Made by a program: the position numbers and the translations under genes
Notes under the pieces: generated by a model
The model's database searches: none
What the model saw: only the letters and a program-made list of their open reading frames with translations
Told to the model about the DNA's origin: nothing
Source: a virus
Length of the DNA: 64,000 bases
Direction: 5' to 3' (one strand)
IMG/VR virus record: IMGVR_UViG_3300031873_000001
Location: 95,537 to 159,536 of that record
In this document: positions 5,372 to 32,026 of the stretch, in pieces
Numbering within the stretch: the first letter of the stretch is position 1
How the letters are laid out: each line of letters starts with the position of its first letter

Positions 5372-6420
5372 GGAAAATGGGCCGCCGTGGCGTGATGTAT
5401 CCCACGATGAGATGTAATACCAAGTGCAAGTTTTGTTATTACTTCGACACGAAAGAACCTGCTTGGAGGACGAGGGCGGACGTCATGGCTGAAGCCTCGA
5501 AGCTGAGAGACGTCTTTAAGCTCGAGGCCGTCGACATCACCGGAGGGGAGCCCACGATCTATCCTGATATCGGGGGCCTGGTGAAGCACTGTGCGGATAT
5601 AGGATTGAAGCCGACCATCATCACGAACGGGCTTCTGACCGGGAGGATCGCCGGGCTGATAGAGAGCTATGGGTTAGAGGACGTCCTGTTGTCCATCCAC
5701 GGCTTTCAGGACAGGCATAGTGAAGCGGTGAGCAAGCCGATGGCCTGGACGCAGGTCGGGTTGACGATCGAGACTCTGATCGGGAGGAAGTTTCCCTTCC
5801 GGACGAACACGACGCTGACCGGATTCTGCGTTCCCGATCTCGATCGGTTGGCCAAGTTCTTCGTTCAGATCAAGCCGAGGATCGTAAACTTTATTAGCTT
5901 CAACCCTCATCCCGGAACTAAGTGGTCGGAGAAGAACGGTGTCGTCTTCCAGCTGAAGCACTCCGATGTGGCGCCCAAATTGAGGGAGGCCATTGCCATT
6001 CTGGATGAGGCCGGGATCTGGGTGAACGTCCGCTACTTCCCGATGTGTCTCTTGAAGGGTTTTGAGGGCCACGTTTGCGGATTCCGGCAGTGGCAATATG
6101 ACCCTTACGAGTGGGAATACTTTTCCGCTTACGGGACGATGACAAGTCAATTGGCGGAGCTCGACAAACAGGCAACTAACGAGAGAGCTTTCGGGGACTC
6201 CGTGGAGGAGCGTGTCCTGAATATGTTTGCATCCAGAGTGGTCGCCTCGAGCATGTTCGGGGAGAAGTGTCAGAGATGCGCCGCCCGGGTGATCTGCGAC
6301 GGTCTTTATCCGCAGTATGTTAGAAACTTTGGAACCGATGAGGTTCAGCCCTATGAAGGAGAACCGATTCGGGATCCGTTGTTTTTCAGAGAACCTTTTA
6401 GAGACCGATGGGGAGGATAG
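5368..6420 (+). CDS. Radical SAM enzyme with C-terminal Cys cluster
   Basis: 350 residues from ATG 5368 (4-base overlap with the GT2 gene). C16-x3-C20-x2-C23 is the canonical [4Fe-4S] motif; D-I-T-G-G-E-P-T at residues 57-63 is the SAM-binding GGE segment; TNTTLTGF follows. The C-terminal third has further Cys residues (CLLKGFEGHVCGF and CQRCAARVIC) that could hold an auxiliary cluster, as in SPASM/twitch enzymes. Substrate unknown. Flanking sugar transferases and methyltransferases suggest it builds or alters a glycan or nucleoside decoration. Confidence 0.88.
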   Translation: MRKMGRRGVMYPTMRCNTKCKFCYYFDTKEPAWRTRADVMAEASKLRDVFKLEAVDITGGEPTIYPDIGGLVKHCADIGLKPTIITNGLLTGRIAGLIESYGLEDVLLSIHGFQDRHSEAVSKPMAWTQVGLTIETLIGRKFPFRTNTTLTGFCVPDLDRLAKFFVQIKPRIVNFISFNPHPGTKWSEKNGVVFQLKHSDVAPKLREAIAILDEAGIWVNVRYFPMCLLKGFEGHVCGFRQWQYDPYEWEYFSAYGTMTSQLAELDKQATNERAFGDSVEERVLNMFASRVVASSMFGEKCQRCAARVICDGLYPQYVRNFGTDEVQPYEGEPIRDPLFFREPFRDRWGG

Positions 6421-6422
6421 GG

Positions 6423-7085
6423 ATGTTAAGCCCAAATGAAGTTCATGAGCGAATGTCCGTCGTCCCCCGATGGTGGGGACAGATAGAAGTCCATCCGGGT
6501 ATCAGGACGCCCGGATGCGAACCGTTCGGATTTTCCGATTGGAAGCTAACCTCAATCCCGCCTAATGATTTTAAGACAGCCCTCGATGTCGGGGCATGGG
6601 ATGGCTATCATTCCTTCCGGCTGAGAGAAGGGGGATTTACGGTGACGGCGGTCGACTCGTATCAGCACAGTGCCGCTGGAATGAAGGGGTTTGAGGTTGC
6701 CCGTGACCTAAGAAGGATATGGGGGAAACCCGTAGACCAGATAGAGTATATGAATATGGATGCTCAAGATCTGTCGGGTCTAGGCGATGCCAAGTTTGAT
6801 CTGGTGCTCGCTTTCGGGTTGATCTACCATATCCAGGACCCCTACAAGGCCATGTGTCAGTTAGCCAGGGTGACCGGGCAGTGCATGGTTTTGGAGGGGC
6901 ATGTCTTTCCGGGCGATCAGCCGATCGGATACTTCTACAGCGATAGGGAGCTGAATAACGACCCCACGAACTTCTGGGGGCTTACGGTTGCCTGTATCGG
7001 AAAGATGGGACAGAGGGCTGGTTTCTCAAGATTTGAAGCGGTCGGACAGCAGGGAGACAGGGCTCTCGTGAGGTTCTGGAAATAG
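6423..7085 (+). CDS. SAM-dependent methyltransferase, CmoB/DUF1698-like
   Basis: 220 residues. ATG 6423 is preferred over ATG 6408 because ggggagg lies at the right distance. The N-terminal W-W-G-Q-I-E-V-H-P-G-I-R-T-P-G segment resembles the start of CmoB-type enzymes; motif I is ALDVGAWDGYHSF; the acidic motif II region is TVTAVDSYQ; FDLVLAFGLIYHIQDP is motif IV with post-motif. It transfers a methyl or modified methyl group from SAM or a derivative; in this context the acceptor is more likely a sugar or nucleoside than host tRNA (inference). Confidence 0.8.
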   Translation: MLSPNEVHERMSVVPRWWGQIEVHPGIRTPGCEPFGFSDWKLTSIPPNDFKTALDVGAWDGYHSFRLREGGFTVTAVDSYQHSAAGMKGFEVARDLRRIWGKPVDQIEYMNMDAQDLSGLGDAKFDLVLAFGLIYHIQDPYKAMCQLARVTGQCMVLEGHVFPGDQPIGYFYSDRELNNDPTNFWGLTVACIGKMGQRAGFSRFEAVGQQGDRALVRFWK

Positions 7086-24273: not shown

Positions 24274-24302
24274 TTGACTGTTACGTTGGGAATAGGTATA
24301 AT
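24274..24302 (+). promoter_or_regulatory. Strong sigma70 promoter for an RNA gene
   Basis: TTGACT (24274-24279), 17-base spacer, TATAAT (24297-24302). One mismatch from consensus. No ORF with a ribosome site begins within the next 250 bases; instead a structured RNA starts near 24308. Confidence 0.85.
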
Positions 24303-24308
24303 GTTTCT

Positions 24309-24406
24309 GGCGGGCGTGGGAAGTGGGACGGGGGATAGGCCAACCTGTCCGGCTGAATCCTAAGCCCGGAAGCTAGGGGATAGGTACTGCTTCCTCCCTG
24401 CCCGCC
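24309..24406 (+). ncRNA. Structured RNA domain, multi-branch stem
   Basis: GGCGGGC (24309-24315) pairs with GCCCGCC (24400-24406), continued by GGGA (24318-24321) with TCCC (24395-24398). Inside are three hairpins: GGATAGG/CCTGTCC (24333-24350, loop CCAA), GGCT/AGCC (24351-24366) and GGAAGC/GCTTCC (24368-24394). Loop CCTA of the second hairpin can pair with TAGG in the loop of the third, a possible kissing contact. I do not recognise this as RNase P, 4.5S, 6S, tmRNA or a known riboswitch. Confidence 0.65.
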
Positions 24407-24417
24407 TTGAAAATGAA

Positions 24418-24547
24418 CTGACGGTGCGGTGTGGTGGGAACACGCCCGATGACCGAATGTAGGCGTTGCACGCTGTCGGTAGCGGTTGCCGTATGCGATC
24501 CTATAAAAGCGAAACACGTAAGCCGGTTCGAATCCGGCCCCGTCAGT
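24418..24547 (+). ncRNA. tRNA-like RNA with oversized body
   Basis: CTGACGG (24418-24424) pairs with CCGTCAG (24540-24546), and GCCGG-TTCGAAT-CCGGC (24522-24538) is a canonical T arm with 7-base loop. A D-arm-like hairpin GTGT/ACAC (24429-24443) has a GG-containing loop. The length of about 130 bases exceeds any normal tRNA, and one unpaired base separates T stem and acceptor stem. Middle hairpins include ACCGA/TCGGT (24452-24480). No CCA is encoded. A tRNA with an insertion, or a tRNA mimic transcribed together with the 5' domain. Confidence 0.55.
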
Positions 24548-29497: not shown

Positions 29498-29512
29498 ACG
29501 GAGGGATGCACG

Positions 29513-29974
29513 ATGGATATCAAGATGTTCGAGATCAGGGACGTGGGGACGCTTATTCCCGCAATCGGGATCCGGCTAAACCCTACCGATGGAGGCGAGC
29601 GATGGCTTCTGGCTCTGGCCGGGTTCGGGCAAGACGTGGAAGGAGTGGATGGGCAGGGTTCTTACGTCCTTCTCATTTTTCTCACCAGGGACATAGCTCA
29701 TTACGATCCGGCCCAGTGGGGAGACCGGACGATGCTTCAAGCCCACCTGTTCATCCGTGATAAGTGGTTTGCCTTAAGGACAGGGGACGTGGTCGACGTG
29801 CAGTTCGTTTTGGGCGAGACGGATCATCCCAAAACTGCGGAACGGTGGGGCCCATCTCTGTTGGAGCTTGCGGGAAAAGATATGCCTAGCCTCAAGAGAG
29901 CTTCAGCGTCTCCTGCGCCTCGGGCGGATGTGGTTGGGGGAACGGTTCCTTCTGACGCAGATATCCCGTTTTAA
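29513..29974 (+). CDS. Hypothetical protein ending in an SSB-like acidic tip (153 aa)
   Basis: Beta-rich body with F-E-I-R-D-V-G-T-L-I-P-A-I-G-I-R-L and G-D-V-V-D-V-Q-F-V-L-G-E-T-D, a pattern I associate with a conserved phage protein of unknown function. The last residues, P-S-D-A-D-I-P-F, mimic the conserved D-D-D-I-P-F tip of bacterial SSB, which binds RecQ, RecO, PriA, Exo I and others. The spacer before it (about 115-145) is Ala/Pro/Ser-rich, like the SSB linker. Confidence 0.75.
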   Translation: MDIKMFEIRDVGTLIPAIGIRLNPTDGGERWLLALAGFGQDVEGVDGQGSYVLLIFLTRDIAHYDPAQWGDRTMLQAHLFIRDKWFALRTGDVVDVQFVLGETDHPKTAERWGPSLLELAGKDMPSLKRASASPAPRADVVGGTVPSDADIPF

Positions 29975-30929: not shown

Positions 30930-31250
30930 GTGAACGACTTGGTGTTTCGGATCATGTTCGCCGGGCTTGGGTTCGCCTCGGGACTCGTGGCTGTGCTCAC
31001 GATGATCACCCTGCCCTGGGCTTTCGCCTTCAACAAGGACGAGCTTCATCATCTTTACTACGGCTGGTTGATGGTGGTGATCGCCCCGATCCACCTGACG
31101 AGGTGGCCGGAGTGGGTCGTCTGGACGGTCTACGTCCTCGGCTACTGGCTGATCGTGGACGACTGGGTCCAGCACTATCGGCAGAAGAAAGACCCCTTCT
31201 ACAAAAGTTTTTTACACAGGATTTTCGCAAGGCTGTGGATAACCTTTTGA
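30930..31250 (+). CDS. Membrane protein (106 aa)
   Basis: GTG 30930 after aaaggag (short spacing). Three hydrophobic segments (about 6-31, 41-54 and 61-74) with Trp/Tyr-rich edges. No family recognised. Its 3' end contains a DnaA-box sequence. Confidence 0.65.
   Translation: MNDLVFRIMFAGLGFASGLVAVLTMITLPWAFAFNKDELHHLYYGWLMVVIAPIHLTRWPEWVVWTVYVLGYWLIVDDWVQHYRQKKDPFYKSFLHRIFARLWITF
31234..31242 (-). promoter_or_regulatory. Consensus DnaA box
   Basis: TGTGGATAA is the reverse complement of TTATCCACA, the strong bacterial DnaA box. It lies in an AT-rich stretch (about 31200-31310) just before a promoter and a structured RNA. A second, poorer match (TTTTACACA) is at about 31210. A lone box can arise by chance. 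Confidence 0.45.
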
Positions 31251-31271
31251 CGATAAATTACGGGAGGGGTA

Positions 31272-31301
31272 TTGACAAAGGTAAACGATTTTAAGTAAAC
31301 T
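31272..31301 (+). promoter_or_regulatory. Sigma70-type promoter for the 31.3 kb RNA
   Basis: TTGACA (31272-31277), 18-base spacer, TAAACT (31296-31301). Perfect -35, moderate -10. Predicted start near 31308. No ribosome site follows until the one for the gene at 31583. Confidence 0.7.
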
Positions 31302-31307
31302 TATACC

Positions 31308-31560
31308 CATCAGCCGAAATGACCACAATATATTGAGGTCGGTTCTACGGAGAATACAAGCGGTGTGAAGCCTCAGTCATCGAATGGAGGAGGGGCCAAT
31401 GGATACGTCCAGAGGTCATCCTCCGTTTTATCTCTCAGTGCATACGCCAGCACTGACTGCCCCGTCTACTGCGAGCCGACGACGCGGGTGCCCTCGGCGG
31501 GCGTCCTGTTACATCCGTGAGTGATCTCACTGGAACAAAATGCGGGCCAACGCAGTAGAC
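31308..31560 (+). ncRNA. Structured non-coding RNA (about 250 nt)
   Basis: No ORF fits. Paired elements: GACC/GGTC (31321-31340); GGAGGA/TCCTCC (31386-31424) enclosing GGCC/GGTC and TGGA-TACG-TCCA; TCAGTGC/GCACTGA (31435-31456); and a long-range GTCTACTGCG (31464-31473) with CGCAGTAGAC (31551-31560) enclosing GACGC/GCGTC and GTGAG-TGAT-CTCAC (31517-31530). So many perfect stems in 250 bases are unlikely by chance. I do not recognise RNase P, tmRNA, 6S or a group I intron core. It could be an independent RNA or a long leader of the next gene. Confidence 0.68.
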
Positions 31561-31582
31561 TTTAACCTACGGAGGGATCCAG

Positions 31583-32026
31583 ATGATTTACGTTGAGAGT
31601 CCAGCAGAGTGGGATGGCGATCGCCCCGCAGTGTTTTTGGCTGGTGGCATTACGGGATGCGTTGACTGGCAGAAGGAGGTCGTCGCCGGACTGGCGGACC
31701 TCGACATCGCCGTCCTGAATCCCCGGAGGGAGAATTTCCCGATCGGGGACCCGACCGCCGCCCGTGACCAGATTGAGTGGGAGTTCCGCCACTTGAGGAA
31801 GGCTCAGGCGGTTTCCTTTTGGTTCCCTGCGGAGACCCTCTGCCCGATCGTGCTGTATGAACTTGGGTCGTGGATCAGGACGAGCAAGAAGCTCTTCGTG
31901 GGCGTCCATCCGGACTACAAGCGGAAGCAGGACGTGGAGATCCAGACCACACTGGTCCGGCCCAAGCTCGAGATCGTCTACTCCGTGGCCGATCTGATCG
32001 CCCAGATCAGGGAGCACTTCGCGTGA
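31583..32026 (+). CDS. Nucleoside 2-deoxyribosyltransferase-like protein
   Basis: 147 residues. V-F-L-A-G-G-I-T-G-C-V-D-W-Q, then L-N-P-R-R-E-N-F-P, Q-I-E-W-E-x-x-x-L, S-F-W-F-P-A-E-T-x-C-P-I-x-L-Y-E-L-G and V-G-V-H-P-D-Y-x-R match the nucleoside 2-deoxyribosyltransferase-like family, including a Glu in the Y-E-L-G segment at the nucleophile-type position. Such enzymes swap bases on deoxyribose or cleave nucleotides. In a phage it could serve salvage, modified-base supply or removal of a nucleotide signal. Preceded by ggaggga and the long structured leader. Confidence 0.82.
   Translation: MIYVESPAEWDGDRPAVFLAGGITGCVDWQKEVVAGLADLDIAVLNPRRENFPIGDPTAARDQIEWEFRHLRKAQAVSFWFPAETLCPIVLYELGSWIRTSKKLFVGVHPDYKRKQDVEIQTTLVRPKLEIVYSVADLIAQIREHFA

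Follow-up and report, generated by a model that had tools for sequence, protein, structure and literature searches.

A conserved structured RNA element without an Rfam match in a large tailed phage and its relative

The stretch of DNA analyzed here, referred to as the window, covers 64 kb at the end of a virus record of 159.5 kb and contains a real and conserved structured RNA element, which is probably functional. The favored explanation, which we regard as fairly probable, is a phage-specific RNA, structured and non-coding, that spans about 255 nt (about 31307-31560) at the head of an operon transcript. The kind of element, a phage structured RNA or leader, is already known, and the present one is without a known family. 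From the sequence we infer its transcription, the ends of the RNA and any function it may exert.

In the proposed mechanism, transcription would be driven by the element's own sigma-70-type promoter, situated within the late gene region. The resulting RNA would comprise a nested hairpin that contains an SD and a closed 3' domain resembling a three-way junction, both of them stable and parted by a variable block of 30 bases. Most likely, it would either work in cis, serving the operon as a generic structured leader that protects or gates its mRNA, or be processed at the 3' stem and then act in trans. Such an element would enlarge the little-known non-coding RNA repertoire of large tailed phages and provide an example of an RNA that holds its place and fold while the following gene changes, a significance whose weight is modest given two distinct sequences.

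Genomic setting and search for relatives

The carrier is a large tailed phage of about 160 kb. Because its portal protein shares 23-33% identity with the T4-type portal proteins of many myoviruses, the phage is, as judged by this protein, a distant relative of the T4-type myovirus group. Upstream of the window, 32 tRNA genes are clustered (L027 5242-11766; G000:C1 about 85242-91766), and the portal gene of a distant relative (L008 2863-5148) features an apparent intein-like insert (CEGGQIAPIPI...HNS), judged by eye. The element itself is preceded by a gene for an SPW-repeat domain protein (PF03779; 30948-31250, + strand), which serves as syntenic anchor in the relative described below. Downstream follows a nucleoside 2-deoxyribosyltransferase-like gene (PF15891; 31583-32026, + strand), to which the element is not tied and whose ribosome-binding site GGAGG (31573-31577, + strand) is located 12 bases past the closing stem.

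The first-pass annotation had been unable to match the element to a known RNA, which agrees with a search by the Rfam 15 covariance models: none reached its gathering threshold, the best sub-threshold score for the element being 12.1 bits (E 4.1). Likewise, ARAGORN made no tRNA or tmRNA call on it. In DNA and protein searches of viral contigs, the element was found on two contigs. One of them is identical to the window; the other, termed G001, represents a distinct phage of about 160 kb and is the sole distinct relative found. The upstream gene, used as a query against the viral contigs, retrieved the identical contig only. DNA searches of phage and plasmid records yielded no relative, the plasmid match being a 26-base piece, and no element was found by a pattern scan and a peptide scan of genome contigs. 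Short-pattern matches in viral contigs beyond the two known carriers were rejected with scores at chance level, and a model of the 3' domain revealed no second copy in the examined stretches of both phages. Among the Rfam, phage, plasmid, viral contig and genome contig searches, the family appears new, and it is so far tiny. Elsewhere in the window, positions 29500-29850 are 94-100% identical to G001 (50-base bins) between far more diverged genes, a recombination mosaic.

Promoter-like site, fold and conservation

The promoter previously claimed upstream of the element, TTGACA-N18-TAAACT, was recovered in all its parts on the + strand: TTGACA occupies 31272-31277, and after a spacer of 18 bases comes TAAACT, which ends at 31301. 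This sigma-70-type promoter-like site matches the consensus at 10 of 12 positions, its spacer being long and its -10 hexamer poor, and it is weaker than the other consensus promoters of the phage, many having the sequence TTGACA or TTGACT-N17-TATAAT. The pattern TTGACA-N16-18-TANNNT occurs twice in the 64-kb window compared to 0.45 expected matches, the element's site being one of the two. A T4-type late promoter (TATAAATA), searched for on the + strand, is absent.

With fold stability beyond dinucleotide shuffles taken as the mark of a structured RNA, the whole RNA attains a z of -2.5 to -2.7 versus -1.9 for the opposite strand, and it ranks in the lowest 2% among 100 same-size stretches from the window. 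The signal resides in the nested hairpin (31382-31428) and the 3' domain (31464-31560); for these two domains, z ranges from -3.9 to -4.9 across both phages, and none of 200 shuffles attained the window values. In the 5' domain (31307-31369, + strand), a short hairpin (GACCACAATATATTGAGGTC) with its flanks is predicted to pair, and the RNA would start at about 31307; this domain is identical in G001. The nested hairpin with its UACG loop, noticed in the first-pass annotation, is indeed present on the + strand, albeit spanning 31382-31428 with 10+4+4 pairs and internal loops rather than 31386-31424 with 14 bp (z -4.7; G001 counterpart -4.9), and it encloses GGAGGAGG (31386-31393) as well as an ATG (31399-31401). 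Next comes the variable block (31434-31463, + strand), where G001 departs from the window at 18 of 30 aligned positions. The reported complementarity of TCAGTGC (31435-31441) and GCACTGA (31450-31456) is exact in the window, where it forms a perfect 7-bp hairpin, but it lies inside this block and is not conserved: the G001 block has no stable fold and no stable counterpart of the pair. The 3' domain (31464-31560, + strand) is a junction composed of a 10-bp closing stem, 3 bp more and two hairpins (z -3.9; G001 -4.6). Its closing stem is the long-range stem of 10 bp that had been proposed, with GTCTACTGCG (31464-31473) and CGCAGTAGAC (31551-31560) matching exactly.

In G001, the element is found behind the same SPW-domain gene. 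The 126 bases that comprise the promoter-like site and the 5' part (31244-31369) are unchanged, 6 of 64 bases are changed in 31370-31433, and the 97-base 3' domain (31464-31560) shows 4 substitutions and one indel, while identity amounts to 64-68% in the adjoining upstream coding bins (31150-31250). Comparative folding, which had been recommended as a check, was carried out with the one distinct relative, and both main domains were predicted anew from G001's own sequence. None of the 60-63 pairs in the fold predicted for G001 is broken in the window, compared to about 4 expected (P about 0.004); of the window's own fold, 2 pairs are broken in G001 (P 0.06-0.17, not significant). Moreover, a U-G to C-G change between the phages keeps the pairing in the nested hairpin, and the last hairpin is re-formed in spite of an insertion and two substitutions. 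Three double changes occur between the two distinct sequences compared, all inside the variable block, and the 10-bp stem is invariant in both sequences. The evidence for pairing can be regarded as modest, covariation being thin with two distinct sequences. Furthermore, because both genomes are mosaic and other stretches are likewise 95-100% identical, the conservation of the element may partly reflect recent exchange.

Competing explanations

That the interval holds no ORF, as had been stated, is correct only in part: frames of 41-51 aa exist, and no frame carries a coding signal. The gene caller, a crude instrument, leaves the element empty in G001 and returns a marginal score in the window (4.2 versus 34-54 for the flanking genes). 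The main rival of the favored explanation is nevertheless a degraded small protein gene, intact in G001 and broken in the window, for which the fold would be incidental. The frame in question, 53 aa in G001 (MDTSSGHPPFYRCPHAQSGC...CGPTQ), is open, is preceded by a good SD (GGAGGAGG) and stops within the last stem at the edge of the element, where the SD of the next gene follows. On the contrary, its codon score of -0.05, versus 0.33-0.38 for the neighbours, is like that of an out-of-frame stretch and corresponds to the 6th percentile of true frames, and 27% of shuffles contain a comparable ORF, 6% one that has an SD. In addition, no peptide relatives were found in phages, viral contigs beyond the carriers, genomes, PHROGs or Pfam, and two one-base length differences break the frame in the window, as also in the contig identical to it, all of which makes such a gene rather unlikely. 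Considerably less probable still is a DNA element serving regulation or replication, for which the AT-rich promoter with its inverted repeat would be the relevant part and the stems behind it would function at the DNA level. The promoter-like site does lie within the sole 40-base AT-rich island (>=72%) past the window's first 1.2 kb, and it is flanked by a short inverted repeat, GGGTAT / ATACCC (pair I4; 31267-31308, + strand), which is the same in G001 and possibly represents an operator or chance. However, the GC skew shows no turn within the window, and it is the + strand, downstream of the promoter, that folds better (z -2.5 versus -1.9).

A third explanation concerns the downstream gene. 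No terminator was found where it was looked for after the element, and since the SD lies only 12 bases past the last stem, and even closer in G001, the transcript probably reads on into the next gene. A stand-alone sRNA, possessing its own promoter and its own terminator, is not what is seen here, the element having a promoter-like site and no terminator, although the RNA may be released by processing. Both the missing terminator and the position of the SD would suit a 5' leader, either riboswitch-like or bound by a protein, that is dedicated to regulating the deoxyribosyltransferase-like gene at 31583. The same holds for the sequence CCTCCGT in one arm of the hairpin (31420-31426), which is also complementary to ACGGAGG in the SD region (31569-31575; pair I6). 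This explanation is opposed by the lack of a counterpart of pair I6 in the G001 inverted-repeat list and by the different gene behind the element in G001, which encodes a 79-aa protein and is succeeded by a paralogue with a like start. The kind of downstream gene is therefore not constant, nor does the element belong specifically to the gene at 31583, and a leader dedicated to this gene seems improbable. Of the two alternatives offered by the first-pass annotation, an independent RNA or a 5' leader controlling the gene at 31583, a structured, non-coding and promoter-led RNA is supported, whereas control of that particular gene is weakened. Further on, G001 carries a truncated deoxyribosyltransferase-like start, an endonuclease-like gene (DUF559-like, under the Pfam cut-off; Vsr-type by eye) and a full deoxyribosyltransferase-like copy. 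The duplicated and truncated gene start (G001 L005 about 5840-6585) resembles a homing-type insertion.

The variable block might be envisaged as an exchangeable 30-base segment on a constant scaffold, swapped between phages and pairing with chosen mRNAs, an idea to which we attach very little probability. In antisense orientation, the G001 block matches at 21 of 23 bases a gene for an Eco57I-type DNA methylase that this phage itself encodes (G001:103176-103198), a match score reached by none of 60 shuffled G001 blocks. In the window's phage, the homologous methylase gene, whose protein is 78% identical, is devoid of the site, and the antisense match stays a lead only, because the window's block has no comparable target match. 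The methylase of G001 (L020 2467-4776; homologue G000:C1:34682-37003) features a TaqI-like specificity domain.

Relation to known RNAs and a further candidate

The stable RNAs C and D of T4 are small RNAs of unclear function that are encoded within a tRNA cluster of this T4-type phage, whereas the present element resides among late genes; the likeness is one of description. Some of the GOLLD, ROOL and OLE RNAs occur in phages or prophages, and these RNAs are larger than the element. They belong to the ornate RNAs, which are large, structured and non-coding with an unknown or partly known function (PMC12286853); the element is likewise a structured non-coding RNA, but one without an Rfam match. 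The manA and wcaG RNA motifs constitute structured RNA domains in T4-like cyanophages, where they apparently regulate nearby genes (PMC2864571). The element resembles them in being a structured RNA domain of a phage and differs in the lack of an Rfam match, in the phage and in the downstream genes. Phages also encode short trans-acting sRNAs such as Esr41, DicF and 24B_1, some of which are cut from longer transcripts (reviewed in PMC12197685); compared to these, the element is longer and more structured, and no terminator was seen.

A further non-coding RNA candidate is located at 24274-24545 of the window and is probably the one that the earlier annotation had counted as the first structured RNA. 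Neither ARAGORN nor Rfam made a call on it. It has a consensus promoter, TTGACT-N17-TATAAT. Its 5' part is closed (GGCGGGC...GCCCGCC), and its 3' part includes a sequence resembling a tRNA T-arm (GCCGGTTCGAATCCGGC). In G001, the candidate is nearly identical (L016 about 7310 onward), with about 100 extra bases in its middle.
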